Origin: Bacteroidota bacterium | Lineage (GTDB): Bacteria > Bacteroidota > Bacteroidia > Chitinophagales > Chitinophagaceae | Reading direction: 5' to 3' | Assembly: GCA_026391455.1 (NCBI GenBank) | Contig: JAPLEH010000010.1 | Location: 186,001 to 250,000, forward strand | Length of the DNA stretch: 64,000 bases | Shown here: in pieces, positions 37,416 to 62,535 of the stretch | Numbering within the stretch: the stretch's first letter is position 1 | Layout: the number at the start of each line of letters is the position of its first letter | The notes under the pieces: generated by a model | What the model was told of the DNA's origin: nothing | Databases searched by the model: none | Seen by the model: the letters and a program-made list of their open reading frames with translations, nothing else | Position numbers and translations under genes: made by a program

Positions 37416-38189
37416 CTATTTCTTTTGTGCAAATAACCAAGGCAGCAATGCCGGTTCTGCAAATGCCGCATCCCAGCTATTGTGATTGGCATCCGGATAG
37501 AGTGTAAACTTTACATTGGCTTTTACCCCTTTCAATGCCTCCACCATTTTTTCAGATAAGAACGGCGGCACCACATCATCTTTTGCGCCATGAAAGACCC
37601 ACCACTTTACATTCTTTAAGTTTGGCGCCGACTCCGGATTAGCACCACCGCAAATGGGAAATGCCGCTGCAAAGAGTTTGGGATTGCGTCGTACTATTTC
37701 AAAAGTGCCCATGCCTCCCATAGATAAACCACCTGCATATATTTTTCTTTTATTGACCGGGTAAGTTTTGATAATGGAATACAACAGTTCCTGCGCCAGT
37801 TTCATAGCCACCGTAGGCTCACCATCTGTTTTAAAATAAAACGCTCTTTTATTATTTTCCAACTTCACATCCACATTACTCCAATAACTGTTTTGCGGGC
37901 ATTGCGGAAAGACCACAATGGCGGGAAAATTTTTCCTAACCGTTGAGTCGAGAAACAGTTTTGCCCCATGTACCAATTGCGCTTCATTGTCATTTCCTCT
38001 TTCGCCAGCTCCATGCAGGAAAAATATCAATGGATACTTTTGGTTTGCATCATAATTTTCCGGCAACAGGATGCGATATAATAACGTATCATTTCCCAGA
38101 ATGAATTGCTTTTTCTGAAACAGGCTTTTATCCTGTGCATGCACAAGTTGAGAAAGCGCAAGAATCATTAAAAGGAAATATTTTTTCAT
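37416..38189 (-). CDS. Secreted alpha/beta-hydrolase (CE1-like esterase / dienelactone hydrolase-like)
   Basis: The 257-residue protein has a signal peptide (MKKYFLLMILALSQLVHAQ) and an alpha/beta-hydrolase core: the oxyanion strand LIFFLHGAGERGNDN, the nucleophile elbow GLSMGGMG, the acid in HGAKDDVVP and the His in PDANHNSWD. This pattern is usual for feruloyl/acetyl-xylan-type esterases and related enzymes in glycan-use loci. It probably removes ester groups from plant or other glycans in the periplasm. It is the last gene of the large glycosidase run, 8 bases after a GH3 gene. Confidence 0.88.
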   Translation of the reverse strand: MKKYFLLMILALSQLVHAQDKSLFQKKQFILGNDTLLYRILLPENYDANQKYPLIFFLHGAGERGNDNEAQLVHGAKLFLDSTVRKNFPAIVVFPQCPQNSYWSNVDVKLENNKRAFYFKTDGEPTVAMKLAQELLYSIIKTYPVNKRKIYAGGLSMGGMGTFEIVRRNPKLFAAAFPICGGANPESAPNLKNVKWWVFHGAKDDVVPPFLSEKMVEALKGVKANVKFTLYPDANHNSWDAAFAEPALLPWLFAQKK

Positions 38190-38197
38190 TGCGATTT

Positions 38198-40471
38198 TTA
38201 CTTTACTATCTGAAAGGATACTTCTTTTACGTCCGCACTGCTTCCTCCAATATACAGATTAAATTCTCCCGGCTCATACACATACTGCAACTGTTCATTG
38301 TAAAAACGGAGATCTTCCACAGTAAGTGTAAACGTTATCACTTTACGCTCTCCTTTTTTCAGCCATACTTTCTGAAATCCTTTTAATTCCTTTACCGGTC
38401 TTACTACCGAACCCACGCGGTCGCGGATGTACAACTGCACCACTTCTTCTCCATCATATTTACCAGCGTTGGTGACCGTCATTTTTGCTTCCAGTTTATC
38501 TCCGGGGCGGATCGTTTTTTTATTGAGTGTGATATCACTGTACGCAAATTTGGTATAACTCAATCCGTGTCCGAATGCATATTGCGGGCTGTTGCGCAGA
38601 TCGATATAGGCCGATACATAATTCATATCGCTGTCATTAGCGGCCGGTCTTCCCGTATTGTAATGATTGTAATAAATGGGTATCTGTCCTTCTGCTCTCG
38701 GAAAACTGATGGGCAATTTTCCCGAAGGGTTATAGTCACCAAACAATACATCGGCAATGGCATCGGCACCCCGGGTACCCAACCACCAGGTATATAGAAT
38801 AGCGGGTACATGTTCCGCCGTCCAGTTGAAGATCAATGGTCTTCCTGCTCCTATGATCACGATAACCGGCTTGCCTGTTGCCATCACGGCTTTGATGAGT
38901 TCTTCCTGCACACCGGGTAAATGAATATTGCTCTTGCTTTTTGCTTCGCCGGTAAATACTCTCTCCTCTCCTACATACATGATCACAAAATTGGATTGGG
39001 AAGCTACGTTCACCGCCTCTGCAAATCCTGCGCGGCTGGTATCCATAATGCCACTCCCCTTTGCGTATAACAATTCTGCTCCGGGTTCTGCTTTTAACTT
39101 TACCGCATCCCACAATGTTTTTATACGGGCCGTATCATCCTTCCAGTCGTAACTCCAGAAGCCAAGATGATCTTTCACCGACTTTACCAACGGGCCGATC
39201 AGTGCGATCTTGGTGCTGGTATTCCCCTGCATCCACATAGCCGGGTTCTCTTTCAGGGGTAAGGCACGAAAGCCAAGGTTATTCACGGGATCATTCTTCA
39301 GCAGTACAATACTTTTCTTCGCCATATCATAGGAAGCCTGCAGGTTTGCTTCGTTGTTCCATTGCGCCTTTTCCCGTTGTTCATTGCAATAGCGAAAAGG
39401 ATCATCAAATAATCCCATTTCAAATTTCTTTTTCAATATCCTCCGCACCGCATCATCGATCACGGCCATCTTTACTTTACCTTCTTTGACGAGTTTTACT
39501 AAATGCTGTATATAACTGCGGCTTTCCATATCCATATCACTGCCGGCATTGGAGGCCTGCATGGCCGCTTCGTAATTATCTTTTGAATAACCGTGATTGA
39601 TCATTTCACCCACACTGCCCCAATCGCTTACTACAAAACCGTTGAATTTCCATTGGCCCTTGAGGAGATCACGTTGCAGGTATTTATTTCCGGTAGCGGG
39701 TATGCCGTTGAGATCGTTGAATGAATTCATAAAAGTGGCGGCGCCTGCTTCGGCGGCGGCTTTGAAGGGAGGCAGGTATACTTCATGCAATTGACGGAGG
39801 CTCATGTCCACCGAATTATAATCTCTTCCCGCCACGGCTGCACCGTATGCTGCGAAATGTTTGCCACAGGCCATTACGGCATCCACATTGCCCAGACCTT
39901 TTCCCTGAAATCCTTTTACCCTTGCTGTGGCGATCAGACTTCCGAGGTAGGGGTCTTCTCCGGCTCCTTCCATTACCCTTCCCCAGCGAGGATCGCGGGC
40001 TATGTCTACCATGGGAGCAAAGGTCCAGTGAATGCCAACGGCCGATGCCTCTGTAGCGGCCACGCGTGCAGAGCGTTCGATCGCTTCTATATCCCAACTG
40101 GCTGCCTCACCCAACGGTAACGGGAATATGGTGCGATATCCATGTATCACATCCTGCCCGAACAGTAATGGAATTTTCAATCGGGATTGCATGGCTATTT
40201 CTTGCAGCGTGCGGGTATGGTCTACTCCTGTTACATTGAGCATGCTGCCAATTTTCCCCTGGCGGATCTGGTTTTGTTTATCACCGTCTTTGGTAATGGG
40301 GCCGGTAGCAGCCCAATCGCCATTGTACTGATTCATTTGTCCTACTTTTTCTTCCAGCGTCATCAGCTTCAGTACGGAATCCACTTTCTGATCAATGTTC
40401 TTTCTTTGTGCCGCAGCCGGTAGCGCACTCAGGACGGCGATCAGCAGCAAGCCTTGTATTTTTTTCTTCAT
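38198..40471 (-). CDS. bglX: Periplasmic GH3 beta-glucosidase (BglX-like)
   Basis: The 757-residue protein has a signal peptide (MKKKIQGLLLIAVLSALPAAAQ) and the two GH3 domains plus a C-terminal Fn3-like domain (TVTNAGKYDGEEVVQLYIRD). The nucleophile is Asp283 in FVVSDWGSV, and the substrate-binding KHFAAYG and RDPRWGR are present. Members remove beta-linked glucose or xylose from the non-reducing ends of oligosaccharides. I use the ATG at 40471 rather than one 18 bases upstream, since the shorter form starts at the signal peptide. Linkage specificity cannot be told. A second GH3 lies at 45959. Confidence 0.95.
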   Translation of the reverse strand: MKKKIQGLLLIAVLSALPAAAQRKNIDQKVDSVLKLMTLEEKVGQMNQYNGDWAATGPITKDGDKQNQIRQGKIGSMLNVTGVDHTRTLQEIAMQSRLKIPLLFGQDVIHGYRTIFPLPLGEAASWDIEAIERSARVAATEASAVGIHWTFAPMVDIARDPRWGRVMEGAGEDPYLGSLIATARVKGFQGKGLGNVDAVMACGKHFAAYGAAVAGRDYNSVDMSLRQLHEVYLPPFKAAAEAGAATFMNSFNDLNGIPATGNKYLQRDLLKGQWKFNGFVVSDWGSVGEMINHGYSKDNYEAAMQASNAGSDMDMESRSYIQHLVKLVKEGKVKMAVIDDAVRRILKKKFEMGLFDDPFRYCNEQREKAQWNNEANLQASYDMAKKSIVLLKNDPVNNLGFRALPLKENPAMWMQGNTSTKIALIGPLVKSVKDHLGFWSYDWKDDTARIKTLWDAVKLKAEPGAELLYAKGSGIMDTSRAGFAEAVNVASQSNFVIMYVGEERVFTGEAKSKSNIHLPGVQEELIKAVMATGKPVIVIIGAGRPLIFNWTAEHVPAILYTWWLGTRGADAIADVLFGDYNPSGKLPISFPRAEGQIPIYYNHYNTGRPAANDSDMNYVSAYIDLRNSPQYAFGHGLSYTKFAYSDITLNKKTIRPGDKLEAKMTVTNAGKYDGEEVVQLYIRDRVGSVVRPVKELKGFQKVWLKKGERKVITFTLTVEDLRFYNEQLQYVYEPGEFNLYIGGSSADVKEVSFQIVK

Positions 40472-40547
40472 TGGTATTATTATAAACAACTACTAATATG
40501 CTCTAAGGACGAAGTTACGTTCCGTTTGCACAGTTTACACGGTTTCA

Positions 40548-42089
40548 TTATGGCGCGGTCGTACGTTTATATTGAATCAGATCATTGACCCGAATGGTTG
40601 ATATGGGATTTGGATTCAGCAGGCGCAATTGCAACCGGTGTTTGCCGGCGGGTAACTGATAGTTCCAGTAAATCTCATTGCGGCGGGTGCGAAAATTATA
40701 AGGCATGTTCACGGTATCCGCTTTCCCATCGAGCGTTACCTGTATATGATAGACCCAGGGCGTGAATGTATCCCATTCTTTTGTTAATGCGCCGGTGAGC
40801 ACTACGCCATCTCCTTCAAATTCGGCAGATAACGTATCGGTGAGTGTTTTACCAATGCCTTTTCTAACGGTGGGTTGCAATCCGGGAAAGGATTGTTCCC
40901 GTTTTACGGGTTGCACCGGTGCTGTATGTAAAGTAATGAGGCTGTCGGTAACAGTTCCCCCGTATCGGGTAATCTGCATAAGCGCATGACGCATGCTGGT
41001 GGCATACACATCGTTCAGTGAAAGTTTAGTAAAAGGGAACGTGATTGATTCCACTTCTTCCAGGTCTTTCTTCCAGCGTTCGGGTATTTTTGTATAGCCC
41101 ATTAATGTACCGAGAATACCTGCAGCCGTGGACGGATTGCAATCCGCATCCTGTCCGCAGCGGGTGGTGATATCCATCGTTTTATCAAAATCGCCATTGC
41201 CATAGAGCAAGCCGGTAATAACATAAGCTGCATTCACCGTAGCATCAATATTAAATGCAGAGAATACCCCATCGGGGCAACCGGTATCATTGGTCCATTT
41301 TTTTTGTATCTCAAACCAGGTGGATTTCCAGTCGCCGGGATTTTTTTCATACCAGGCTATCACATCGTTCATGCATTTATAAAAATTGCTTTCAGCCGGT
41401 ATGCTTTTCAAAGCCTCTTTCACTACCTCTTTAATATCTGTTTTAATAAATGCAAGACTGTACATGGTGGCCACATACACGCCGCCATACCAACCATCGC
41501 CATAATTCATGATATGACCCACTTTATCACATACCACTGCTGCTGCCTGTGGCATACCCGGATTCATTAACCCTGCAAAATCGGATTCGATCTGAAAGTC
41601 GATACAATCGGCATGGGGATTATTGAGCCAGTGGCCGGATTGCGGAGCAGACATTCCCTGTAAAATATTATAACGGCCCGATTGGTTGGCATGCCAGAGC
41701 GGATAAGGGGCCAGTGCATAGGCTTTTGCAAATGAATCGATGGGTGCATCCATTCCATATTTTTCCAACACGTCCACAAAAGTGAGGTCCATATAAATAT
41801 CATCGAAGAGACCCGGACTGTTATCGAACCAATGTTTGATATAATGTTCAGGCCAGGGTATGGGCTGGTAATCCTGTATCATACTGCCCTGGAAACGAAA
41901 CTCCATCGGGCCACCATACGACACACCGATGGTTTGGCCGGCCCATCCACCTCGTATCTTATCCTGTAAGGTCGCTTTGCTCAGTTGAGTGGTGGTACCT
42001 TCCTGAGTACTGTTGCTGGTACTGGCAGGCTTATCACTGCATGCCTGCAGCATACACCATGCAGCGGTAATGATGATCAGTCTTTTCAT
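40548..42089 (-). CDS. ADP-ribosylglycohydrolase-fold lipoprotein in a glycan-use locus
   Basis: The 513-residue protein has a lipoprotein signal (MKRLIIITAAWCMLQAC, Cys17) and an ADP-ribosylglycohydrolase (PF03747) fold: GGWAGQTIGVSYGGPMEF near residue 47, the metal-binding Asp pair in FDDIYMDLTF and the second pair in TTRCGQDADCNPSTA. A C-terminal domain of about 130 residues has strand patterns of a carbohydrate-binding kind. An extracytoplasmic ADP-ribose hydrolase makes little sense, since there is no ADP-ribosylation there; with glycosidases on both sides, this fold is probably being used on a sugar glycoside. It is separated from the GH3 gene by 76 bases and from the GH2 gene by 21. 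Confidence 0.87.
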   Translation of the reverse strand: MKRLIIITAAWCMLQACSDKPASTSNSTQEGTTTQLSKATLQDKIRGGWAGQTIGVSYGGPMEFRFQGSMIQDYQPIPWPEHYIKHWFDNSPGLFDDIYMDLTFVDVLEKYGMDAPIDSFAKAYALAPYPLWHANQSGRYNILQGMSAPQSGHWLNNPHADCIDFQIESDFAGLMNPGMPQAAAVVCDKVGHIMNYGDGWYGGVYVATMYSLAFIKTDIKEVVKEALKSIPAESNFYKCMNDVIAWYEKNPGDWKSTWFEIQKKWTNDTGCPDGVFSAFNIDATVNAAYVITGLLYGNGDFDKTMDITTRCGQDADCNPSTAAGILGTLMGYTKIPERWKKDLEEVESITFPFTKLSLNDVYATSMRHALMQITRYGGTVTDSLITLHTAPVQPVKREQSFPGLQPTVRKGIGKTLTDTLSAEFEGDGVVLTGALTKEWDTFTPWVYHIQVTLDGKADTVNMPYNFRTRRNEIYWNYQLPAGKHRLQLRLLNPNPISTIRVNDLIQYKRTTAP

Positions 42090-42110: not shown

Positions 42111-43949
42111 TCAATCAGGATATTTCCTTTGTTTGCTTTTATAATACGACTGGAGTACAAAAAATGCTTTCTTGCGTTTTCCTTCCGTAGAGATCAGTCC
42201 TTTCCGGTTGAATCCATCCTGTATCCCCGGCAATACCCGTCGCGGTGATCGGAAATCGGTAAGTATCCATGGGCTTATGCCCCGGATATTCGGCATCTTA
42301 TCAATCATCTGCAGGTTTTGGCGGTATAAATATTCCTGGTATTCTTCGGTCCATCGTTCTTCTTTGGTGCCATGTAATCCCTGTTTGGCATCGCCCCCAA
42401 ACTCAGATACTACCACCGGTTTATTATATGGAACTTTCCATACCGCTTCGGGTGCCGTAGCGAGATCGCCTCCATACCAGCCCCGGTATTGGTTAAAGGC
42501 CACGATATCGAGGTCTTCGCCAATCTTATCATCCACGATTCCCTGACCGTTTTCCTGCCGGGTAAGCAGGGCCGCGCTTACCAGCCGGGTGGAGTCGAGT
42601 GTACGGGTGAGCGTTACCAGGTTTTTTAAAAACGTATTCCTGTTGTCCGACAAGGGTGTTTCGTTGGCCACGGACCAGATGATCACAGCGGCGCGGTTCT
42701 TATCCCGGTTAACCATGGCCGTTAGTTGCGCAGCGGCATTGTCATACGTGCTTTTATTTTTGAAATCGATGGTCCAGTAAACCGGTATCTCTTCCCATAC
42801 CAGCAGCCCCATTTTATCGGCCAGTTTTAGCATGTGTTCATTGTGGGGATAATGTGCCAGGCGTACATAATTACAGCCCAGTTCCTTTGCCCATCCCAAT
42901 AAGGCGGCTGCATCTGCGGCACTGTGGGCCCGCCTGCCCTTGTATTCTTCGTGTATACTGATACCTCTTAAAAAAACGGGGTTACCATTCAGCAGGATAT
43001 CCGGCCCCCGTGTTTCGATGGTTCGAAATCCAATTGAATCGGTGATCGTTTGTGCATTCGTACGAATGATGACTTTGTACAGTTTGGGCGAAGCCGGTGA
43101 CCAGTAACTGATGTTATCCGCAGGGATCTCAAATGCCGCAATCCCATTTGCCAATAATCCATACGACCAGTTGATTTTCAGTTCCGGTATTTCCACAGTA
43201 ATGGTAGCCGGCGCCGGATTATTTATTTTAATCCTGCAACTGATAATATTGTTGGTTCCTTTTTTGAGTCCGATGGAATAATCTTCAATGAGCATGGATG
43301 GCTCTTCCACCAACGTTACATCGCGGGTGATGCCGCCATAATTCCACCAGTCAGTATTGAGGGTGGGGACTCCTTCTTTGGTGCGTTTATTATCCACTTT
43401 CAAAATCAGGTAATTGGCCTTCGGTTGTACGATACCCGTTACTTCATACTGAAAAGGGGTGAAACCTCCTTCATGTACACCCAGTTTTACCCCGTTGAGA
43501 TATACATCGGCTTTATAATTAACTGCCCCAAAATGAAGAAAGAGCCGTTTACCCTTCGGAAGCTGGTAATCAAAAGATCGTTTGAACCAGATGGTTCCTT
43601 CATAATATTTTAATTCTGCCGCTTGTGTATTCCAATCGCCGGGAATCTGCATAGTGGGTGATTTGTCAAAATCATACTCTACCAGTTCTGATTTGTTCTT
43701 TGCGTGATAATTATTATAATAGGCGCCGGTTGCTTTTACATTATGCTGATCATATACCTCTGCATGAAAGCTATAATAGCCGGTTTCATACGGATCGATG
43801 ATATAATTCCATTTCCCGTTGAGACTGGTGGTTTGCCGCCCGGAGAGATTATTCAGTTGTGCATGCGCCATTCCCGAAAGAAGGAACAGCGAGACAATTA
43901 TCATTATTGTCAAAACAAAAACCGCCCGAAGTACTATTGTTTTTCTCAT
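42111..43949 (-). CDS. Secreted GH2 glycosidase, beta-glucuronidase-like
   Basis: The 612-residue protein has a signal segment (VLTIMIIVSLFLLSGMAHA), a sugar-binding jelly-roll (MQIPGDWNTQ, YEGTIWFKRSF), an Ig-like domain and a TIM barrel. The acid/base is Glu430 in IIWSVANE and the nucleophile is Glu516 in VVVSEFGGD. The C-terminal segment ILTDFRSPRRVLPGIQDGFN followed by RKGLIS is close to that of beta-glucuronidases, making hexuronic acid or galactose the likely leaving sugar. It lies 10 bases before the GH97 gene, in the same run. Confidence 0.92.
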   Translation of the reverse strand: MRKTIVLRAVFVLTIMIIVSLFLLSGMAHAQLNNLSGRQTTSLNGKWNYIIDPYETGYYSFHAEVYDQHNVKATGAYYNNYHAKNKSELVEYDFDKSPTMQIPGDWNTQAAELKYYEGTIWFKRSFDYQLPKGKRLFLHFGAVNYKADVYLNGVKLGVHEGGFTPFQYEVTGIVQPKANYLILKVDNKRTKEGVPTLNTDWWNYGGITRDVTLVEEPSMLIEDYSIGLKKGTNNIISCRIKINNPAPATITVEIPELKINWSYGLLANGIAAFEIPADNISYWSPASPKLYKVIIRTNAQTITDSIGFRTIETRGPDILLNGNPVFLRGISIHEEYKGRRAHSAADAAALLGWAKELGCNYVRLAHYPHNEHMLKLADKMGLLVWEEIPVYWTIDFKNKSTYDNAAAQLTAMVNRDKNRAAVIIWSVANETPLSDNRNTFLKNLVTLTRTLDSTRLVSAALLTRQENGQGIVDDKIGEDLDIVAFNQYRGWYGGDLATAPEAVWKVPYNKPVVVSEFGGDAKQGLHGTKEERWTEEYQEYLYRQNLQMIDKMPNIRGISPWILTDFRSPRRVLPGIQDGFNRKGLISTEGKRKKAFFVLQSYYKSKQRKYPD

Positions 43950-43959
43950 GGTATATTTT

Positions 43960-45930
43960 TCAGAACGCTTTCAATTGAAGCAAAAATCCGCCGCCGGGTT
44001 TCATCGTGATGCTGATCGTTTCTTTTAAACTTTCCTCCCGGGTGGAGAGTATATAATCACTGCCATAGTTATGTGCATTTATTCCATCCACGCATTGGGT
44101 AATCTTGTACAGCCCTCTTTCAGCAAAATTCAAGGGTATCGTTACAACCCGTTGTGTGTTGTTATTCAATCCTGCCACATACCAGTCTTTTCCTTTTTTG
44201 CGTGCAGTAATGATGTATTCGCCGATCTTTCCCTGTAAGATCTTCGTTTCATCCCAGGTGGTGGGCAGACCTCCCAGCAATTCCATAAAGGCCGGTTCTT
44301 TCATGCCCTGGCTGATATTGCCGCTGAATATCTGCAACGGGCTATCATACACGACAAACATAGCCAACTGGTGACACCGGGTACCCATACTCATAGGGTT
44401 CTTTCCAATGGGGCGAAACTGATCTTTTTGAGCATTGAGTAATAATCCCGGCTCATAATCCATCGGGCCGGCCAGCATGCGTGTCCAGGCCAGGGTTACA
44501 TTGTGTTCGGGTGTGGGCAGTTCGCTCCAGATATTCCATTCGGAGCCCAGCACTCCTTCCTGGGTAATGGCATTGGGCCAGGTGCGGTTAAAGCCTTTGG
44601 GTGGATATGCACCATGGAACATGATCTGTATCCGATGATCGGCACAGGCTTTGGCGATACGATGATAAAAATTCACCATGGGCTGATCATCACGGTCCAT
44701 GAAATCAGTCATAATGGATTCCACACCCCATGCATTGAATTGCGACAACGCAGGTTCCAGTTGCTGATCGAGTGTGGAGCAGAGTGTCCAGAGCATCAGT
44801 TTGATCCCTTTACTTTTTGCATAGGCTACGAGTTCATTCATGTTCAATGCCGGATTGATCTTAAAGAGATCTTTATAATCACTCCATCCAGCATCCAGCA
44901 TGATCTGGGTAAAGCCAAACCGCTTTGCAAAATCGATATAGTATTTATAAGTAGCGGTATTGATACCTGCTTCAAACGGTACATTGAAGAGGTTGATACC
45001 GGTGATCCATTCATCGGTTCCTTTTCCGGGTTTGATCCAGGATACATCTTTCAGCGTAGTGGGTTCACCTAAAAGATAGAACAGATCATTATCCGGTAAT
45101 CCGATATCATTTTTTGCCACCATGATTGCGCGCCAGGGAAATGATTGATAGCCTGCGGCGCGCGCGATATAAGGTGCACGCTGGGTAACCACCCGCTGTG
45201 GAAATTCGCCGGTTGTCATTCGTTCCTCCTGCGGATAGGGTGCAAATACGCCTTTCAATCCCTTCGTGTTCTTCTGCAAAAACATGCCGGGATAATTATG
45301 CAGGCCTGCATCGGAGATCGCCAGTTGATAGCCATTGGGAAGGGATACTGTAACCGGTGCATAGGTGAAAAGTGTATCCGGAAGTTTGGCGAGGGTATCT
45401 TTCCGGTATTGCCCTTCAAAGCTGGTATGAAAGCGATCCATATCAGGTCGCTTATCGATATGTGCATACCAGATCACCGATCCCGGATCTGTTTCAAACA
45501 GCGCTGTTTCCTGGTTGACGATCACTGAATCGGCGCGCAGGTTCACGATACGATAAGCCATTCCTTCATTGTACATCCGGAAAATCACCATCCAGTTATT
45601 TGGGAATACGAGGCCAAGATGATTATACCGTTCACGAATCATCTTTCGTCGTGAAGGTACCGGCACCGTGAGTGGCTGGTCGTACCGGTTGTATTTGTAT
45701 TGCACTACGGTGAGCTGATCGGAGAGCCGGGTACCATTGCCCAATTCCACGTCAATGGAGGGCGACTGCAGGAGTATGATAGTATGAGCAAAAAGTTTAT
45801 AAGATAATTGCTGCTGTGTGTTTATTTCAAGACGCAGCGATGAATCCGGGGAGTATAATGTAAATGGCTGCTGAGCTATCAACCTGCAGGCAAACAGTAG
45901 TAATAAACCAGTCTGTAGCAAGTGTTTCAT
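43960..45930 (-). CDS. GH97 family glycosidase, probably of the retaining alpha-galactosidase type
   Basis: The 656-residue protein has a signal peptide, an N-terminal GH97 beta-sandwich (YSPDSSLRLEINTQQQLSYK) and a TIM barrel starting near residue 296 (VSWIKPGKG) with YIDFAKRFGFTQIMLDAGWS. At the end of the fourth strand is IMTDFMDRDDQ: the Asp at 409 is the position of the nucleophile in retaining GH97 enzymes such as the characterised B. thetaiotaomicron alpha-galactosidase, while SusB-type inverting enzymes lack it. Glu458 in ITQEGVLGSEWN is a candidate acid/base. The assignment as an alpha-galactosidase type is by motif, not proven. It is coupled to the GH2 gene by a 10-base gap. Confidence 0.92.
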   Translation of the reverse strand: MKHLLQTGLLLLFACRLIAQQPFTLYSPDSSLRLEINTQQQLSYKLFAHTIILLQSPSIDVELGNGTRLSDQLTVVQYKYNRYDQPLTVPVPSRRKMIRERYNHLGLVFPNNWMVIFRMYNEGMAYRIVNLRADSVIVNQETALFETDPGSVIWYAHIDKRPDMDRFHTSFEGQYRKDTLAKLPDTLFTYAPVTVSLPNGYQLAISDAGLHNYPGMFLQKNTKGLKGVFAPYPQEERMTTGEFPQRVVTQRAPYIARAAGYQSFPWRAIMVAKNDIGLPDNDLFYLLGEPTTLKDVSWIKPGKGTDEWITGINLFNVPFEAGINTATYKYYIDFAKRFGFTQIMLDAGWSDYKDLFKINPALNMNELVAYAKSKGIKLMLWTLCSTLDQQLEPALSQFNAWGVESIMTDFMDRDDQPMVNFYHRIAKACADHRIQIMFHGAYPPKGFNRTWPNAITQEGVLGSEWNIWSELPTPEHNVTLAWTRMLAGPMDYEPGLLLNAQKDQFRPIGKNPMSMGTRCHQLAMFVVYDSPLQIFSGNISQGMKEPAFMELLGGLPTTWDETKILQGKIGEYIITARKKGKDWYVAGLNNNTQRVVTIPLNFAERGLYKITQCVDGINAHNYGSDYILSTREESLKETISITMKPGGGFLLQLKAF

Positions 45931-45958: not shown

Positions 45959-48253
45959 TTATTTGGTCCAGTTCACTTTACCTGATTTTACGTCTCTTGA
46001 ATTTGTACCGATCATTATCTGAAATTCACCGGGTTCCCAATCGTATTTCAGATCGGCATTATAGAACTTCAGATCGTTGGTGGTAATGGTGAAGGTCACC
46101 GTTTTGGTCTCTCCTGCTTTGAGTGCGATCTTTTGGAATCCTTTCAGTTCTTTTACCGGTCTTGTTACAGAACCCACCACATCGCGGATATACAATTGTA
46201 CCACTTCCTGTCCATCGTATTTTCCACTATTGGTCACCGTTATACTGGCCGTAAGGGTTTGATTTCCTTTGAGGGCATTACTGCTCAATGAGAGATTACC
46301 ATAGTTAAAGTTGGTATAGCTGAGTCCGTATCCGAAGGGATAAACCGGATCATTGCTTACATCGAGGTAATTGGAGCGGAATTTAGAGAACCATTTTCCA
46401 TCTTCCAGCGGACGGCCGGTATTTTTGTGTTTGTAATAAATGGGAACCTGTCCTACATTTTGCGGGAAGGTGGTGGTGAGTTTTCCGGAAGGGTTCACAT
46501 CACCATACAATACATCCGCAATAGCATAACCAGCTTCGCTTCCGCCAAACCATACATTGAGGATGGCGGGTACGTTTTCATTTTCCCAGGTCAATGCAAG
46601 CGGTCTTCCGGTAAATAATACGAGTACCACGGGCTTACCAGTTTTCACCAATGCTTTCAGCAAATCTTTTTGTACCTGTGGTATTTCAATATTGCTGCGG
46701 CTGCTGCTTTCACCGCTCATTTCGGATGATTCGCCCAGTGCAGCGACGATCACATCTGATCTGTTAGCGATATCCAATGCTTCCTGCATGATTACACTGG
46801 CGGGGCGGCTATCGCGATGCAGTGATTTACCAAACATACCGGCCCTTTCCTCGAAGAGGCTGTCTTCATCGAGATTGGAACCACGGGCTGTTAAGATATT
46901 TACTTTGTTGCCGAGTACTTCTTTTAAACCGGTCAACAAGGACGTGGCTTTTTCAAAATTGGCGGCCACACTCCAGGTGCCGGGCATATTCTCTTTATTG
47001 TCTGCCATGGGGCCGATGAGTGCAATGGTTCCTGTTTTTTTCAGCGGCAAAATATTACCATGATTTTTTAACAATACGAAACTGTTGGCAGCAATATTGC
47101 GTGCCTCTTTGCGGTGATCGTTGGTGAACACTTCGGTCTTAGCCCTGTTCTCATCGCAATAGCGATAGGGATCGGCAAAGAGTCCGAGTTTATATTTCGC
47201 TTCGAGAATTCTTCTGCAGGCCGCATCGATCTGTGCCATGGTCACTTTACCTTCTTTCAATGACTGCTGGGTGGTGGTGAGTATTCCTTCGCCCACCATA
47301 TCCATATCTATACCGGCCATGAGGGCACGGGCAGATACGGTTTGCAAATCACCGATACCATGGTCCATCATTTCATTGATACCGGTATAATCGGTCACTA
47401 CAAATCCTTTGAAGCCCCATTGTTTGCGAAGCACATCCGTCATCAGCCATTTATTAGCGGTAGCGGGTACGCCTTCCACTTCATTGAAGGAAGCCATTAC
47501 ACTGCCCACACCGGCATCTACGGCTGCTTTATAGGGAGGGAAATAATCATTGTACATGGTCTGGCGGCTCATGTCAGTGGTATTATAATCGCGGCCGGCT
47601 TCTGCGGCACCATAGAGTGCATAGTGTTTTACGCATGACATGATGGTGTTATTCTTCGAGAGATCATTGCCCTGGTAGCCGCGCACCATGGCCGCTGCAA
47701 CCTGAGATCCGAGAAAGGCATCTTCTCCACTTCCTTCTGCAATGCGGCCCCAGCGGGGATCGCGGCAGATGTCTACCATGGGAGAAAAAGTCCAGTTGAT
47801 CCCATCGGCACTGGCTTCTACGGCAGCAATGCGGGCACTGCGTTCTACCATATTCATATCCCAGGAGCAGCTTAATCCCAATGGAATGGGGAATACAGTT
47901 TCGTAACCGTGTATCACATCCATACCGAAGATGAGTGGTATTTTGAGGCGGCTTTGTTCTACGGCCACTTTCTGTACTTCACGAATTTTTGCCACTGATT
48001 TGATATTGAAAAGCCCACCTACTTTTCCTTCCTTGATCTTGCGGCCTATATCTGAGCTTTGTGCCTGGCCAGTTACAATATCTCCGCTGCCCGGCAGATT
48101 GAGCTGACCGATCTTTTCTTCCAATGTCATTTTCTTCATCAGGTCATCAATAAAGGTCTTCATGGCAGCATTGCCCGTGAGCTGGGCTGATGACTGACGG
48201 GATGTAAACAACGCTCCCGCAGCAAAGGCCAGTGTAATAAGGATCTTTTTCAT
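45959..48253 (-). CDS. bglX: Second periplasmic GH3 glycosidase (BglX-like)
   Basis: The 764-residue protein has a signal peptide (MKKILITLAFAAGALFTSRQSSAQ) and the complete GH3 layout with nucleophile Asp288 in GFVVTDYTGI, RDPRWGR and KHYALYGAAEAGRDYN, ending in a Fn3-like domain (VTNSGKYDGQEVVQLYIRD). It is related to the GH3 at 38198 but clearly different, so the pair probably handles two linkages or sugars. It lies 28 bases upstream of GH97 and 30 bases after the phosphatase gene in the same run. Confidence 0.95.
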   Translation of the reverse strand: MKKILITLAFAAGALFTSRQSSAQLTGNAAMKTFIDDLMKKMTLEEKIGQLNLPGSGDIVTGQAQSSDIGRKIKEGKVGGLFNIKSVAKIREVQKVAVEQSRLKIPLIFGMDVIHGYETVFPIPLGLSCSWDMNMVERSARIAAVEASADGINWTFSPMVDICRDPRWGRIAEGSGEDAFLGSQVAAAMVRGYQGNDLSKNNTIMSCVKHYALYGAAEAGRDYNTTDMSRQTMYNDYFPPYKAAVDAGVGSVMASFNEVEGVPATANKWLMTDVLRKQWGFKGFVVTDYTGINEMMDHGIGDLQTVSARALMAGIDMDMVGEGILTTTQQSLKEGKVTMAQIDAACRRILEAKYKLGLFADPYRYCDENRAKTEVFTNDHRKEARNIAANSFVLLKNHGNILPLKKTGTIALIGPMADNKENMPGTWSVAANFEKATSLLTGLKEVLGNKVNILTARGSNLDEDSLFEERAGMFGKSLHRDSRPASVIMQEALDIANRSDVIVAALGESSEMSGESSSRSNIEIPQVQKDLLKALVKTGKPVVLVLFTGRPLALTWENENVPAILNVWFGGSEAGYAIADVLYGDVNPSGKLTTTFPQNVGQVPIYYKHKNTGRPLEDGKWFSKFRSNYLDVSNDPVYPFGYGLSYTNFNYGNLSLSSNALKGNQTLTASITVTNSGKYDGQEVVQLYIRDVVGSVTRPVKELKGFQKIALKAGETKTVTFTITTNDLKFYNADLKYDWEPGEFQIMIGTNSRDVKSGKVNWTK

Positions 48254-48283: not shown

Positions 48284-49321
48284 CTATTTGAATGTGATAT
48301 CACTTTTATGAATCGTATACTCGATACGGCTGTTATTGTATTTATCAATGATCTCCATTTTTATAACCGGATCCTTTTCCCATTCGATGGTCAATAACCC
48401 GAAATGATTATCCATTACCGGGCCTTCGATACGGTTCTTATTCAATGTAGCAAAATCCCAGGTGGAAGTGATGCCGCTGGCGGTTACGTCATAGAGCGGG
48501 TATAAACCCGTTTCACTGAGCCTTGATATTTCAGCGTAATGTACATCACCGGTAAGAAAGATCACCCCTTCTGCTTTTGTTTTTTGAATCAAGTCCAGCA
48601 TCTTCTTTTGCTCATGAGGGAAATTGGCCCAGGCCTCGTATCCGTTGTATTCAATACTAAATTGGGAACCGCTGCAAATCAGGCGAAGATCCGCGGGTTG
48701 GCTCAGTTCTTTTTCCAGCCAGCTCCATTGTGCTGTGCCAAGCAGGGTGCTGTCGGGTGAGGTGTGCGGTTTATAATCCGGTGTATAAAAATAATGGTCA
48801 CGGGGAAGTTTGGTCAATGTATCATAAAGCAGGAGGTTGTTGCGAAAGCTGCGTACATCGAGCAGAATGAGCTGAATCGTTTTCCCGTTCTGCTGAATAT
48901 ATTCCGTTTTGTAAATGCCTTCGTGTTTTCTTCGTTCGCTTTCGGCAGGTTCTTTGAAAAATTGCAGGAAGATTTCTTTTGATTCTTTCTTCCAGGGATA
49001 ATGCACGCCGGCATCATTCCTTCCGTAATCATGATCGTCCCAGGTCGCATACAGTGTGGTGGCAGCTTCCAGTTTTTTAAAATCAGGCTGTGCCATCCAG
49101 CGGGTGTATTTATTCCGGAGGGTATCCATATTATCGGTGTCCCCGTAAATATTATCTCCGAGGAAAATGAATGCCGCCGGCTTCCGGTCTGCCGCCAGGC
49201 TGAGTACGGGTTGGGGTTCATCCTGATAGCCGCAACTGCCAAAAGCGATACGGGTTACGGCGGGTTTACTGTTGCACCCAACAAGAATGCAAATAATCAG
49301 TATGGTATAAATTCCTTTCAT
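48284..49321 (-). CDS. PhoD-like metallophosphatase lipoprotein
   Basis: The 345-residue protein has a lipoprotein signal (MKGIYTILIICILVGC, Cys16) and the alkaline-phosphatase-D motif set: IAFGSCGYQDEP, FIFLGDNIYGDT, TWDDHDYGRND and FLTGDVHYAE. Enzymes of this group hydrolyse phosphate mono- or diesters with a metal centre on the outside of the cytoplasm. Its place in a glycan locus suggests it removes phosphate from a sugar or polymer. It overlaps the SGNH hydrolase gene by four bases. Confidence 0.9.
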   Translation of the reverse strand: MKGIYTILIICILVGCNSKPAVTRIAFGSCGYQDEPQPVLSLAADRKPAAFIFLGDNIYGDTDNMDTLRNKYTRWMAQPDFKKLEAATTLYATWDDHDYGRNDAGVHYPWKKESKEIFLQFFKEPAESERRKHEGIYKTEYIQQNGKTIQLILLDVRSFRNNLLLYDTLTKLPRDHYFYTPDYKPHTSPDSTLLGTAQWSWLEKELSQPADLRLICSGSQFSIEYNGYEAWANFPHEQKKMLDLIQKTKAEGVIFLTGDVHYAEISRLSETGLYPLYDVTASGITSTWDFATLNKNRIEGPVMDNHFGLLTIEWEKDPVIKMEIIDKYNNSRIEYTIHKSDITFK

Positions 49322-49971
49322 TTTATTAATACAGGTTCTATGAGTTCTTTCCAGATGGCATATCCTTTGGCATTCATGTGCAGGTTGTCCGGCCCGAAGA
49401 TATCTGTCATCGGTTTTCCGTCTTTATCGAGCATTTTATGATATACATCAATATAGGTGGTTCGCTTTTTCTTTTTCAAAAAATTCCGGATCATCACATT
49501 CGCTACGTTGAATTTGGGCATCAGGTGCTGCCTGGCCGGGCTTGGCTTCATTGAGATATAGGCAATGGGTACTTTTTTATACCGGGCACGGATCATCGCA
49601 AACAGATCAAAGAAACGTTGTGCCACCTGTGCGGGGTATAAGGTATCGTTTCCTGCAAAATCATTTTCCCCGCAATAGATAATGATCTGTTTTGGTTCAT
49701 ATTTAAAGATCACCTCTTCGGCATAATAGATCAGGTCGGTGAGCGAAGAGCCGCCAAAGCCCCGGTTGAGAATGGGATATGCAGGAAAATAATTCTGTAC
49801 ATCTCTCCAGAGGGTGAAGGAAGAGCTGCCTGCCAGCAATATCTGGCCTTTGGCCGGCATGGCTATACTGTCCTTCTCTTTAAAGGCTCTTATCTCTTCT
49901 GCATACGGCTGAGCAATAAGTATGGTATGCAACAGCACAAAAGCAATAAGTATAGAAACTATTTTATTCAT
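49318..49971 (-). CDS. Secreted SGNH/GDSL hydrolase
   Basis: The 217-residue protein has a signal peptide (MNKIVSILIAFVLLHTILIAQ) and the SGNH blocks: AGSSSFTLW with Ser50 as nucleophile, RGFGGSSLTD, YCGENDFAGND, and a C-terminal DNLHMNAKGYAIW with the catalytic Asp and His. It is a periplasmic esterase or lipase-like enzyme, probably for acetyl or other acyl groups on glycans. It is coupled by a 5-base gap to the sialate O-acetylesterase gene and by a 4-base overlap to the phosphatase gene. Confidence 0.92.
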   Translation of the reverse strand: MNKIVSILIAFVLLHTILIAQPYAEEIRAFKEKDSIAMPAKGQILLAGSSSFTLWRDVQNYFPAYPILNRGFGGSSLTDLIYYAEEVIFKYEPKQIIIYCGENDFAGNDTLYPAQVAQRFFDLFAMIRARYKKVPIAYISMKPSPARQHLMPKFNVANVMIRNFLKKKKRTTYIDVYHKMLDKDGKPMTDIFGPDNLHMNAKGYAIWKELIEPVLIK

Positions 49972-49976
49972 CTTGT

Positions 49977-51905
49977 TTATTTATCGGTTCGAAAAGGTGC
50001 TGCTGGCAGCCCTTCTTTATTATACAGATTAGCGTCCATCGGCGCATCGACCCAGGCATAGCGTACATAGACTGGTGTGCTGATCTCAGCGGCACTTACC
50101 ACCACTGTATTGCCTTGTATCACGGCATTGGCGGGTACAAACTCTTTATTCTCGCCTGCGATGGTAAAGCCCATCAGCTTATCGCCTTTTTGCCAAAGCC
50201 CTTTCCCGGTATAGTCGTAATTGATCACGATGGTATTGCCGGTGATAGTATGCGATTTGTAGATGGGACCAGCCGGTACTTCATTCTTCATGCCATATAC
50301 AATATTAAATGCATTGGCCGCCAGGCGCTCACCCACTTCCCGCTTGCGTTTGGGATGAATATCCACCTGATCGCCAACATCAATCGTAACGGCCATGCCT
50401 GTTTTGGGAAGTTGCAATGCGTATCCCTGCGCCTCCCGAAGTCCGGCCCAATTACTTTCTGCTGGTTCTTTAATGGCGGGATTATAAGAGGCCAGTTGCA
50501 CAAAGAGAAAAGGTAATTCAGGGCTGGCCCATCGTTTGCGCCAATTGTTGATCAATGCAGGGAACAATGTCCGGTACTCCACATATTTATCAGCATTGGA
50601 TTCTCCCTGGTACCAGATCACTCCGCGTATGGTGGCGGGCAGTAAGGGAGCGATCATTGCATTGAACAGTACAGCGGGTTGATTTTGCAAAGAGGAAAAA
50701 TTTACACCATTGGTCACTTGATTCTTTCGCAATAGTATTTTCATGGAGGCGGCTCCGCACAATGCGATCTTCTTTCCGTTTGTTTCAATATAAAAATGAG
50801 AAGGATCATCATTCAATCCGCCGCCACCCCCTGTATCTTCCACACGGATAGCGATTAAGTTCTTCCCTGCTTTGAGTACACCTGCGGGTATGGAATAGGT
50901 ACGCAATTGATTCCATACCGTGTGTGTACCCAGAAACGAACCATTGATCCAGGTAGAATCAATATCATCAATGGCGGGCAGGTGCAATACGGCTGGTTTC
51001 CCTTCATCTCCGGGTGCCACTTCGAAACTTATCCGATACGCTATTATACCGTCTAATTCCGGATATCCTTTTTCTTCCCAATTGCCGGGCAGCCTGACCT
51101 GATCCCAATTCAATTCGGGAATGTTGATGGCTGTCATCGTATTGAACAAAGTACCGGCATCGGCCCGGTTTCGCAGATAACTTTTTTCACTTTTGATGCG
51201 GGCTGCTTGCAATTGAGTGATGTCAAGCGGCTTTATTTCTTTCTCATATAACTGACTATAATCTGGAAAACCCTTTAGTCCTTCTTCATCCATCCAGGCC
51301 TGTGCTGGTGTACCTCCCCAACTGGAAATGATAATACCTACCGGTATCTTCATTTTTTCGCGTAGCTTTTTGGCAAAGAAATATGCGGTGGCTGAACAGT
51401 TCCCAATGGTGGTACTGTCGATCATGGCCCAACTGCTCCGCAATTCAGCATTGTTCCGTTCTTTGCTATCCAGTGTATTTTTTACCACCATGAAACGCAG
51501 GTTATCATCGGCTGCCGATGCCATTTCCTGGGCATAGTTATCATGGAAGGCAGACATCGTGAATTCCATATTACTTTGTCCGCTGCATACCCATACTTCG
51601 CCGGCCAGTACATGACTGATCACTATTTTTTGCTTACCGGATGCGATGAGCATAGCGCCACTGGCCCCGGGTCTTGCGGGAAACAGTTTTATCTTCCATT
51701 CACCGGATGTATTGGCGGTCGTGGTATAGTTGCGGTGCATGAATGTGATATCCACTTTGGCATTGGGTGCCGCCCATCCCCAGATAGTTACTTCGCGGCC
51801 ATGTTGCAATACCATTTTATCCGCAAAAATGGAAGGCAGTTTCAGTTGTGCAGGTACAACCAAAGAGGATAACATTACAAGAAGGGCAAGCAAATTTCGT
51901 TTCAT
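49977..51905 (-). CDS. Sialate O-acetylesterase family protein
   Basis: The 642-residue protein has a signal peptide and the two SASA/SGNH blocks of sialate O-acetylesterases: VWVCSGQSNMEFTM and GVIWYQGESNADKY. An inserted jelly-roll (about residues 290-390) contains LPGNWEEKGYPELDG and looks like the sugar-binding domain of GH2 enzymes. It removes acetyl groups from sialic acid or similar sugars so that glycosidases can act. Its start at 51905 is three bases from the stop of the GH43-like gene, so translation is coupled. Confidence 0.92.
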   Translation of the reverse strand: MKRNLLALLVMLSSLVVPAQLKLPSIFADKMVLQHGREVTIWGWAAPNAKVDITFMHRNYTTTANTSGEWKIKLFPARPGASGAMLIASGKQKIVISHVLAGEVWVCSGQSNMEFTMSAFHDNYAQEMASAADDNLRFMVVKNTLDSKERNNAELRSSWAMIDSTTIGNCSATAYFFAKKLREKMKIPVGIIISSWGGTPAQAWMDEEGLKGFPDYSQLYEKEIKPLDITQLQAARIKSEKSYLRNRADAGTLFNTMTAINIPELNWDQVRLPGNWEEKGYPELDGIIAYRISFEVAPGDEGKPAVLHLPAIDDIDSTWINGSFLGTHTVWNQLRTYSIPAGVLKAGKNLIAIRVEDTGGGGGLNDDPSHFYIETNGKKIALCGAASMKILLRKNQVTNGVNFSSLQNQPAVLFNAMIAPLLPATIRGVIWYQGESNADKYVEYRTLFPALINNWRKRWASPELPFLFVQLASYNPAIKEPAESNWAGLREAQGYALQLPKTGMAVTIDVGDQVDIHPKRKREVGERLAANAFNIVYGMKNEVPAGPIYKSHTITGNTIVINYDYTGKGLWQKGDKLMGFTIAGENKEFVPANAVIQGNTVVVSAAEISTPVYVRYAWVDAPMDANLYNKEGLPAAPFRTDK

Positions 51906-51908
51906 TGG

Positions 51909-53678
51909 TTATTCTACTTTTACGGGTTGAGTCCTTACACTTACTCCGTTTTCATTGATCGATTCGATACTGTAATAATACGTTTTTTGTGCATCCATCG
52001 CTTTCATCCAGTATTCATTATTGCTATGTATCATGATACTGGTATACAATTTCTTCGGATCAGTGCCATAATAGATATGATAGGCAAAGGCATTGTCTAC
52101 CGGGCGCCATTTTATGAATGCACTGCGTTTATCTTTTTCTGTTCTCAGCACAATAAAATTCTCGACGGGTTTTGGTTTTTCTCCATTGCCATTGCCAAAT
52201 ACACGTAATCCGCTGATGGCAAATTTACCGGTAGGCATGTGTATATTTTCCAGTTTGATATAACGGGCCTGTACCGGATTTGCCAATTCCACATATTCAT
52301 GCGGCACATCGGTTTGGTTATTGCTCTTATCTGTCAATACGGTCCATTTTTTGCCGTCGGCAGAGTAATAGAGTTTATACTGATGAAATTGGTTATTCCA
52401 TTTACCCAGGCGGTCAGCGTCCACATCCTGATCGGCATAATTGATCTGAATTGCGTTTACCGTGGAAAGATTACCCAGATCTGTTTGTATCCATTCGCCT
52501 TTATTTCCTGTGGCCGCACTCCAGTATGTTTTGGTGAGTTCATCCACGGCGTTGTTGGGAACATAGCCACCCAAGGTGGAAGATACCTGTACGGGTTTAT
52601 TATAATTCAACAGCATCCATCCGGTGAAATAAGGTGATTTCCCGTCTGCACCATACGTTGAAGTAATGCCTGCAGCAGGTATATAATGCGGGTAGTCGCC
52701 AAAAGTGGTATTGCAATTCATCACATCATCTTTATCAAATCCGGCGGGCCAGATTCCGATCCGGCGTTCGAATGTATTCTTAACTGATACTACGGTGGTG
52801 GATACATGCCAGTAGTTGTTGAAATTGTCTTTGAACGTGGATCCATGACCTGCGCCTCTTACATATCCGCCCGATTTGATACTGAGCGGATCACTTTGCG
52901 CCTCGAAGGGGCCGAGCGGATCTTTGCTTACAGTAACACCATCTGCATAACCGCTGAATTCAGTGCCCGGAGCACCATATTGAAAATAATATTTCCCGTT
53001 GTGTTTCGTCATCCAGGCTCCTTCGATAAAGGGGTCGAGAAAGGTATTATCCATATGCTCACCAAATCGCTGCCAGCCATATCGCCATTGTTCGAGAAAC
53101 CACATTTCTTTTCGGGTGCCTTTGGGTTGCATGGTGCTTCGGTTTAGTTCCACGCCATACAACGGGAACCTGTTGCTGCTGCCATTATACATAAAGAATC
53201 TTCCGTCGTCATCGGTGAAGAACGCCGGATCCCATCCGCCGATATCAAATGAATCCACCAGTGGTTTCCATTCATTGGCTTTGGGATTGGTGCTCATCCA
53301 GATGGTGAATTTGCTGGTATAGGTGGATCCGAAGACCAGCATCGTGTCGCCGATGATGCCCACTGCAGGTGCGCAGAGTTCATCGTACACACCGCCATTC
53401 CAGGGACGTAAAAATTTCCGGGATACAAATTTCCAGTTCAGCATATCCGTACTCCACCAGTATCCCCATTGATTGGTGCTGAATAAATAATATTCTCCTT
53501 TATAATTTACGATTACCGGATCGGCCGTGGCGCGGTGGCGGCCCCATTCGCTGAAATTAGGAATGGGCGTATAGCCATAATCGATATTGATGGGGTTGCA
53601 ATAGGTCTTTTGCTGTGCGCGTACAGGTTGAACGAACAGGACAAGCAGGATAAATGCAATGATCGTTTTTGTTGACAT
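51909..53678 (-). CDS. Secreted GH43-like glycosidase with F5/8-type-C and Fn3 domains
   Basis: The 589-residue protein has a signal peptide, a five-bladed propeller with the GH43 triad (Asp53 in RATADPVIV, Asp150 in GGWDPAFFTDDDG, Glu219 in LDPFIEGAWM), a discoidin (F5/8 type C, CBM32-like) domain at about residues 365-490 (AVDELTKTYWSAATGNKGEW, NAIQINYADQD) and an Fn3-like domain at the end. Such enzymes release arabinose, xylose or galactose from side chains; the carbohydrate-binding domain anchors it to substrate. Its ATG overlaps the stop of the GMC oxidoreductase gene by one base. Confidence 0.9.
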   Translation of the reverse strand: MSTKTIIAFILLVLFVQPVRAQQKTYCNPINIDYGYTPIPNFSEWGRHRATADPVIVNYKGEYYLFSTNQWGYWWSTDMLNWKFVSRKFLRPWNGGVYDELCAPAVGIIGDTMLVFGSTYTSKFTIWMSTNPKANEWKPLVDSFDIGGWDPAFFTDDDGRFFMYNGSSNRFPLYGVELNRSTMQPKGTRKEMWFLEQWRYGWQRFGEHMDNTFLDPFIEGAWMTKHNGKYYFQYGAPGTEFSGYADGVTVSKDPLGPFEAQSDPLSIKSGGYVRGAGHGSTFKDNFNNYWHVSTTVVSVKNTFERRIGIWPAGFDKDDVMNCNTTFGDYPHYIPAAGITSTYGADGKSPYFTGWMLLNYNKPVQVSSTLGGYVPNNAVDELTKTYWSAATGNKGEWIQTDLGNLSTVNAIQINYADQDVDADRLGKWNNQFHQYKLYYSADGKKWTVLTDKSNNQTDVPHEYVELANPVQARYIKLENIHMPTGKFAISGLRVFGNGNGEKPKPVENFIVLRTEKDKRSAFIKWRPVDNAFAYHIYYGTDPKKLYTSIMIHSNNEYWMKAMDAQKTYYYSIESINENGVSVRTQPVKVE

Positions 53679-57914: not shown

Positions 57915-58691
57915 CTATACCAGATTGCGGTAGAGTTCGGATAAACGTCTTGCATGTTCATCATAGGCGGATTCAAATAACTGAGTGGCCTTTTCTGCTC
58001 CCGCAATACAGGCTGCCGTTAGCACTTTGGGCGGATGCCCGGCTTTTGTGAGCAGACCCGCCAGTTCTGCTTTAATCGCATTGATAATAATAGCTCCGCC
58101 TACCGTAGATCCGGGCGATACGGGTGTGTCCAATCCTTCTACCCATATCATAGAATCTCCGGCAGGTGCGCCGGTATCCAATATGATATCTGAAAAGTCA
58201 CCCAGTTTTTTTCCATCGGCCCGTTTGCTTTCGCTTTTGGCAGAATGTGCTTTGGTAAGCAGGCCAACCGTTTTGATTTTTTTCTGTTGAAATAATTCCG
58301 CCATTTCCACCGGCACCACATTGGTTCCGCTGGATGATATGATAAGCGCACAATCTTTTTCATCAACGGCAAAATTGCGCAGGATACGCGCAGCGAGTCC
58401 CGGTACATTTTCGAGAAACATAGCTTGTCGTTGACCGTTTGCACCCACCACATTATTATGATAGGTGAGTGATAATTCTACGATAGGATTAAATCCGGGG
58501 AATGATCCGTAGCGGGGCCACATTTCTTCCACCATGATGCGGCTATGGCCTGATCCAAACACATGTACCATACGTCCGGAGAGAATGGTGTCGGCAAACC
58601 AACCAGCCGCTTGTTGTATGGCTGCTTGTTGTGCCCTTACTGTTTCAATAATTCCCGCACATTTTTCCAGGTAGGATGCTGTTAATGTCAT
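57915..58691 (-). CDS. SIS-domain sugar-phosphate isomerase/etherase-like protein
   Basis: The 258-residue protein has a SIS fold with MVHVFGSGHSRIMVEEMW, the phosphosugar loop CALIISSSGTNVVPVEMAEL and DTGAPAGDSMIW. It matches the stand-alone SIS proteins (UPF0309-like) used in sugar catabolism rather than GmhA or MurQ. It would bind a phosphorylated sugar or amino sugar in the cytoplasm. It is the first gene of the long minus-strand run and is divergent from the NagB-like gene, 139 bases away. Confidence 0.87.
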   Translation of the reverse strand: MTLTASYLEKCAGIIETVRAQQAAIQQAAGWFADTILSGRMVHVFGSGHSRIMVEEMWPRYGSFPGFNPIVELSLTYHNNVVGANGQRQAMFLENVPGLAARILRNFAVDEKDCALIISSSGTNVVPVEMAELFQQKKIKTVGLLTKAHSAKSESKRADGKKLGDFSDIILDTGAPAGDSMIWVEGLDTPVSPGSTVGGAIIINAIKAELAGLLTKAGHPPKVLTAACIAGAEKATQLFESAYDEHARRLSELYRNLV

Positions 58692-58830
58692 TGTTGTTTT
58701 TTTACCGGTCTGTGAATGGGGCTTGTTATAAGAGGCAAATGAAGAAAGCGATACTTGTTTCTTTTCTTATGCCTATTTTTAACCCCTAATATATTTTCTT
58801 TTATTCTTTACTTTTTATTCGCACCTTTTT

Positions 58831-59562: not shown

Positions 59563-59563
59563 A

Positions 59564-60463: not shown

Positions 60464-60533
60464 AAAAATTGCTATGCTCCTTCGGGTAAGTTATTCCCTT
60501 ACCCATTGGATATGTTAATAGTTAGTGTGTGAT

Positions 60534-62503: not shown

Positions 62504-62535
62504 ACTAATTTTTTACTTAAACATATTATGAAACA

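Follow-up and report, generated by a model that had tools for sequence, protein, structure and literature searches.

In ARH3, one of the ADP-ribosylhydrolases of the PF03747 family, the ribose of the substrate is held by magnesium through its cis-2,3-diol, and the diphosphate of ADP-ribose is next to a GNG loop; in ARH-type enzymes generally, Thr residues beside the Asp pairs ligate the metal. Ribose is also what the Rus loci of Bacteroidota scavenge; Glowacki and colleagues (2020) describe these systems and reportedly find them diversified in other species, possibly with predicted ADP-ribosylglycohydrolases. We take BT2802 to be RusR, and RusK and RusNH to be names of genes at the ribose locus. 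The ribose PUL of Bacteroides thetaiotaomicron is given as BT2803-BT2809 in PMC12596196, with RusR as its regulator and RusT as the proposed ribose transporter, and a table row for BT2804 in PMC10434189 names a ribokinase, a TonB receptor, SusD, DUF4969, a nucleoside hydrolase and a DMT permease, with no ADP-ribosylglycohydrolase in that row. Furthermore, gene tables of staphylococci in PMC3637587 and PMC3900703 place an ADP-ribosylglycohydrolase, a permease and a ribokinase side by side, the staphylococcal enzyme being presumably of the ordinary kind.

Here, we describe a PF03747 protein from a Chitinophagaceae genome that carries an export signal and belongs to a distinct exported subfamily found across Bacteroidota. 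Its gene lies in a stretch of 64,000 nucleotides, the whole of which is called the window below. We see about an even chance that this lipoprotein is a hydrolase, built on the ADP-ribosylhydrolase fold, that works outside the cytoplasm and takes a ribosyl unit off some compound other than ADP-ribose.

A lipoprotein gene within a string rich in glycosidase and esterase genes

The PF03747 match of the 513-residue protein spans the entire profile (positions 1-287 of 287; 131.2 bits against a cut-off of 26.2, E 8e-38) and was the only one in a profile search of the window genome; a PHROGs search gave no match. At the N-terminus, MKRLIIITAAWCMLQAC can be read as a lipoprotein signal, its lipobox being LQAC with Cys17, and a crude signal rule scored a type II signal (SPII) in all three rows of the window clade (the window protein, L118 and L119). 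The same rule was positive for 101 of 108 complete family proteins (45 of type II, 56 of type I), as opposed to 2/33 ribokinases and 0/8 BT2802-like regulators; since it also marks 6 of 13 ordinary ADP-ribosylglycohydrolases (as SPI, their first helix being hydrophobic), the family count serves as a guide only. Judged from these signals, export of the window protein is well supported, and the placement of the lipoprotein outside the cytoplasm, put forward in the preliminary description, is borne out by the lipobox and the family count; on which side of the membrane it sits, we infer.

The gene belongs to an operon-like string of 11 minus-strand genes that starts at 55402 and ends at 37416, adjacent genes being separated by -4 to 58 bases, in the order GMC oxidoreductase, GH43, SASA, GDSL, PhoD phosphatase, GH3, GH97, GH2, the ADP_ribosyl_GH gene, GH3 and esterase (Table 1). 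Its position between GH2 and GH3 agrees with the earlier description of a gene set among glycosidases. Scans for promoters and terminators were uninformative (34 promoter-like sites against 37.6 expected, 10 terminator-like sites against 20.9 expected). Elsewhere in the window, positions 57915-63726 encode a SIS-domain protein, a glucosamine-6-phosphate isomerase-like protein, a ROK kinase, an SDR and two Gfo/Idh/MocA dehydrogenases, a grouping that resembles a catabolic cluster for amino sugars in the vicinity of the glycosidase operon. Homologues of the GMC oxidoreductase that opens the string occur near an ADP-ribosylglycohydrolase gene in L170, L173, L176 and L179, two of them adjoining a ribokinase.

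Table 1. Positions of the ADP_ribosyl_GH gene, of segments of its product and of the other genes of the string, in window coordinates
Feature	Position	Strand	Basis
Exported ADP_ribosyl_GH-family lipoprotein, 513 aa	40548..42089	-	ORF with ATG start; PF03747 match
Signal peptide and lipobox L14-Q15-A16-C17	42039..42089	-	read from sequence
E63, matching in the alignment the conserved Glu in the N-terminal motif of ordinary members	41901..41903	-	112/112 rows
D96-D97, first Asp motif, F/Y replacing T/S before it	41799..41804	-	MAFFT alignment; 112/112 rows
D164-F-Q166-I-E168, acidic segment at the end of the GNGxxMR position	41586..41600	-	D164 and E168 in 112/112 rows
D314-A-D316-C317, second Asp motif, C replacing T/S	41139..41150	-	MAFFT alignment; 112/112 rows
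Predicted ARH-fold catalytic domain, residues about 36-377	40959..41984	-	AlphaFold2 pLDDT 94.7; VIA-align Z 32.9 to ARH3 6g1p
Predicted C-terminal jelly-roll domain, residues about 403-509 (107 residues)	40563..40883	-	predicted model and structure comparison
GMC oxidoreductase, first gene of string	53678..55402	-	gene annotation
GH43 with F5/8 type C domain	51909..53678	-	gene annotation
SASA acetylesterase-type protein	49977..51905	-	profile match
GDSL esterase-type protein	49318..49971	-	profile match
PhoD-like phosphatase, lipobox-like N-terminus	48284..49321	-	profile match
Second GH3 gene	45959..48253	-	BglX model 955.2 bits, cut-off 666
GH97 gene	43960..45930	-	profile match
GH2 gene, directly upstream of ADP_ribosyl_GH gene	42111..43949	-	profile match
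GH3 gene, directly downstream of ADP_ribosyl_GH gene	38198..40489	-	BglX model 785.8 bits, cut-off 666
Esterase-type alpha/beta hydrolase, last gene of string	37416..38189	-	profile match

In an AlphaFold2 model computed from 83 family sequences (mean pLDDT 94.7), the first domain superposes on the ADP-ribosylserine hydrolase ARH3 (6g1p) with a Z of 32.9, at 2.6 A over 299 residues, and on other ARH-type chains (ARH1, DraG and more) with Z of 26.9-31.0. A profile search of solved structures yielded weak sequence matches only (best 2.2e-06), so that the fold evidence rests on the predicted model. The C-terminal jelly roll, modelled alone at a pLDDT of 90.2, finds its best matches in domains of CE2 and related carbohydrate esterases (CE2 esterase 2waa, Z 9.2 over 95 residues); phage tail-tip domains reach Z 8.9, tied with CE2 and other beta-sandwich domains, and CBM35 and CBM36 about 7. 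As Foldseek returned no match under E 0.001 for this domain, a carbohydrate-binding role is a suggestion only, namely that the modelled jelly roll may bind a glycan.

The subfamily and its sampling

Searches with six short peptides found 90 loci, and all 80 that were listed are Bacteroidota-titled records, members elsewhere being possible. Together with 20 loci from Chitinophagaceae, two of which duplicate listed ones (L120 = L038, L121 = L109), these gave 98 distinct loci. Another 20 Chitinophagaceae loci, of 4 to 20 kb, include a copy of L074, which leaves 19. Four rows under 400 aa were excluded; of the 96 that remained, set A1 comprises 82 together with the window protein, and set A3 comprises 37 of 38 prepared pieces. 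The quick, unrooted tree has 112 rows, 2 of 114 having been dropped as duplicates, and L111 (1003 aa, on a very long branch) was excluded from the 112-row conservation and the comparisons of ribose-linked positions. Run against the PF03747 proteins of the class (recognised at E 1e-3), the family profile gave 802 bits for L155 and 104-133 for L158, L163 and L165, and only 11-35 for the other 18. L158, L163 and L165, of 451-480 aa and with DDDT and GWDSDNP motifs, form another PF03747 subgroup whose scores fall between the window family and ordinary ADP-ribosylglycohydrolases.

Several further variants were seen. Seven SusC/D loci (L032, L086, L088, L091, L095, L097 and L103) hold ADP-ribosylglycohydrolase-like paralogues of about 660 aa just upstream of one or two family members, and several loci with such paralogues also carry PF00756 esterases; paralogues and family members are perhaps a multi-enzyme set for one substrate. 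These paralogues resemble the window family in their signal-like N-termini, their fold family and their NPH and PGM segments, but differ from the window protein in having DDDT and DxDN motifs, at 23-26% identity to it. A clade rich in Spirosomataceae (L069, L076, L078, L080, L082, L084, L085, L099, L101, L102 and L108) includes no ribose-linked member here; several of its members lie beside Gfo/Idh, GSDH/PQQ-type or DUF4434 proteins and SusC/D, and the conserved positions 149, 178 and 192 are partly changed. In L057:1-1614, the family gene is split into fragments of 187 and 349 aa, next to a nucleoside hydrolase and a RusT-like transporter.

Ribose genes beside the relatives

At least one of four ribose genes (ribokinase, RusT-like transporter, nucleoside hydrolase, BT2802-type regulator) accompanies the family gene in 41 of the 98 distinct loci. 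Ribokinase is present in 32, in 21 of them as the immediate neighbour on the same strand; 30 loci hold a RusT-like transporter of the RhaT/GlcU or ureide-permease type, 23 of them together with ribokinase; nucleoside hydrolase was found in 14/98 and the BT2802-type regulator in 9/98. Within the stretch examined, none of the four occurs in the other 57, and the further Chitinophagaceae loci had ribokinase in 6/19 and none of the four in 13/19. Neighbours were annotated through some 40 representatives out of 1198 called ORFs; 42 neighbour proteins were scanned, of which 33 kinases (one a duplicate) match TIGR02152 and 9 regulators match NF058569, 'BT2802 family ribose utilization protein', all at E<=1e-70. 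Ribose-linked copies are scattered over most branches of the tree, requiring 27 changes against 36.5 when shuffled.

The link extends to whole genomes. The family gene occurs at E<1e-100 in 34 of 195 Chitinophagaceae genomes (a weak match in G023, E 1.4e-14, was excluded), and ribokinase is found in 25/34 genomes with the gene but in 13/161 without it (Fisher p 6e-15), RusT-like transporters correspondingly in 24/34 and 17/161 (p 2e-12); these p-values overstate independence, as the genomes are related by descent and some are incomplete. Where gene and ribokinase occur together (25 genomes), they lie less than 700 bases apart in 11 and less than 12 kb in 14, and their adjacency in several families does not depend on the independence of genomes. 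Given the ribose genes at 41/98 loci and the ribokinase co-occurrence, the subfamily most likely frees ribose outside the cytoplasm, to which the staphylococcal neighbourhood of permease and ribokinase forms a parallel. We count against ribose release the clade rich in Spirosomataceae, with its neighbouring oxidoreductases and SusC/D, and an 'ADP-ribosylglycohydrolase family' gene of Prevotella intermedia, which PMC10434189 reports in an iron-regulated hemin-uptake locus, 8.5-fold up; this gene may lie outside the subfamily.

The window branch

The identity of the sugar is read from the neighbours of relatives and not from the window locus, which holds no ribokinase, RusT-like, nucleoside hydrolase or other Rus-type gene. 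In the window genome as a whole, no ribokinase scored above the cut-off, the best of six weaker kinase matches reaching 92 bits, and neither IU_nuc_hydro nor a RusT-like gene was found. Three other genomes belong to this branch: in G100 a ribokinase lies on a different contig from the family gene, whereas none was found in G173 (100% complete) or G408 (79%). Seven further genomes from the genus of the window all lack the family gene. The enzyme thus appears not to be tied to ribose use on this branch and, with ribokinase, RusT and nucleoside hydrolase all missing from the window genome, the substrate of the window copy is less certain.

The tree places the window protein in one group with L118 and L119 (support 94), and joins these three to L038, L041, L042 and L106 (support 99). 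L119 has GH43, SASA, GDSL and two GH3 genes in common with the window operon; L118, whose stretch ends inside a further gene, has GDSL, two GH3 and GH97 (Pfam). Both add DUF2961, GH30 and PQQ-dehydrogenase genes, and L118 also a GH123-type gene; DUF2961, which we take to be a furanosidase-type family (GH172), lies near the family gene in 7/101 loci. L167, with a protein 65% identical to that of the window, comprises SusC, SusD, a LamG protein, PF10091, GDPD, the family gene, GH3 and an FGE-type protein, and continues with relatives of the window genes 34613-35857 and 31640-34501 (by eye, nusA and infB), which are likewise found downstream in the window. A GH3 gene adjoins the family gene not only in L167 but also in L180, and since most single neighbours are unannotated, further glycosidase-type settings are possible beyond L118, L119, L167 and L180.

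Such settings would suit a glycosidase of new specificity, the window clade having been recruited to a glycan operon where it cleaves another furanoside or cap, for instance arabinofuranose or galactofuranose. The GH43, SASA, GDSL, GH3, GH97 and GH2 genes of the operon, the parts shared by L118 and L119 with their added DUF2961, the SusC/D, PF10091, GDPD and GH3 genes of L167 and the window genome's want of a ribokinase all point this way. Against this, wherever the 49 ribose-linked rows all agree (residues 1-345), the window clade has the same residue. Where conservation reaches 90% or more, the clade differs at 137, 146, 181, 186, 208 and 230, none of them acidic and a single one polar (N181, Q in the window protein). 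A sugar with a trans-2,3-diol would, moreover, suit an ARH-type metal site less well; we regard a new specificity as possible but rather unlikely, and keep to removal of a ribosyl unit as the preferred function.

The active site

Conservation was read from 36 positions picked by hand among the conserved ones. Among them, E63, D96, D97, Y99, N135, R139, N141, N157, D164, E168, D170, Y201, N286, D314 and D316, are invariant in all 112 family rows including the window protein. The residue before D96 is Y in 72 rows, F in 39 and a gap in one (Phe95 in the window protein), and the residue after D316 is C in 110 and S in 2 (Cys317). Of the two metal-binding Asp motifs claimed in the preliminary description, both Asp pairs are thus present, but with the flanking Thr/Ser replaced they are not textbook motifs. 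Set against ordinary members, the protein differs both in these flanking residues and in the GNGxxMR-type segment. The latter aligns to C162-I-D164-F-Q166-I-E168 of the window protein, a correspondence read by eye from a MAFFT alignment with bridging sequences and not from structural superposition; hhalign alone aligned both ends well and the middle poorly. Among 17 other PF03747 rows compared, [GS][NC]GxxMR is present in 11 (6 being exactly GNGxxMR) and absent in 6 of other subgroups, so its loss is not unique.

If the ARH3 roles hold here, the ADP moiety is not expected to bind in the usual way, and the Glu and four Asp would remain for metal and catalysis. Indirect support for the window protein being something other than an ordinary ADP-ribosyl hydrolase comes from the vanished GNGxxMR-type segment, the replaced Thr/Ser beside the Asp pairs and the score of 21.4 bits against the ADP-ribosylarginine hydrolase Tri1 model (NF041672), far below its equivalog cut-off of 490. 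The altered segment and the low Tri1 score also weigh against a secreted ADP-ribosyl hydrolase that would recover ADP-ribose from proteins, PAR or the NAD-derived remains of dead cells, although 6/17 other PF03747 rows, of unknown substrate, do without the motif as well. The ARH fold with both Asp pairs and the Glu is what such a scavenger would keep, and ribose genes near relatives would fit it too; all in all, we think it improbable. That the protein merely binds, as a non-catalytic, crystallin-like member of the fold, would accord with the replaced Thr/Ser but is very hard to credit, for E63, D96, D97, D164, E168, D170, D314 and D316 are invariant in 112/112 rows, unlike in a dead enzyme. 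From the sequences, an active enzyme is the favoured reading, albeit one whose site is unusual.

Discussion

For an enzyme that removes ribosyl units, we propose that the metal site formed by D96, D97, D314 and D316 would hold the cis-2,3-diol of a ribofuranosyl group, while E63 and a metal-bound water would help to break the C1 bond of what might be an O- or N-linkage; the jelly roll may meanwhile hold a glycan. RusT would, in many relatives, import the ribose so released, and RusK would phosphorylate it. The enzyme of the window operon would probably use this chemistry to strip ribose, or a sugar much like it, from a glycan or glycoside, thereby letting the GH3, GH97, GH2 and GH43 enzymes act on the rest of the substrate. 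The undescribed glycosidase activity first suggested for this fold is plausible, but the recurring partners of the family (ribokinase, ribose-type transporter, nucleoside hydrolases) favour ribosyl chemistry over general glycan cleavage.

A more far-reaching proposal, which we offer tentatively and at less than even odds, is that of a new glycoside hydrolase family: exported ribofuranosidases on the ARH fold, spread through Bacteroidota in the service of ribose foraging, from which the branch of the window protein, L118, L119 and L167 moved into glycan operons as a debranching or uncapping enzyme, in cells mostly without ribokinase. Among the matches listed in the CC-licensed literature, none concerns an exported ADP-ribosylglycohydrolase studied as a glycosidase or ribosidase, an absence that means little, as most subscription papers lie outside it. 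If the ribosyl reading is true, a fold known for reversing protein ADP-ribosylation would also have a widespread nutritional role outside the cytoplasm, a new function would have to be assigned to many Bacteroidota genes of glycan and ribose loci that are now annotated as 'ADP-ribosylglycohydrolase', and an extracellular ribose source for Bacteroidota could be identified by a simple assay.

Compared with ARH3, ARH1 and DraG (PF03747), the window protein has in common the fold (Z 28-33), the conserved Glu and the two Asp pairs, at 13-16% identity over the aligned fold. It differs from them as a lipoprotein with a C-terminal jelly roll, and its family by the change of T/S-DD to F/Y-DD and of DxDT/S to DxDC and by the absent GNGxxMR-type segment. 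As to gene context, the subfamily is reminiscent of the Rus loci of Bacteroidota, represented by BT2803-BT2809 of B. thetaiotaomicron, in that many relatives likewise adjoin a ribokinase, a RusT-type transporter, a nucleoside hydrolase, a BT2802-type regulator and SusC/D homologues.
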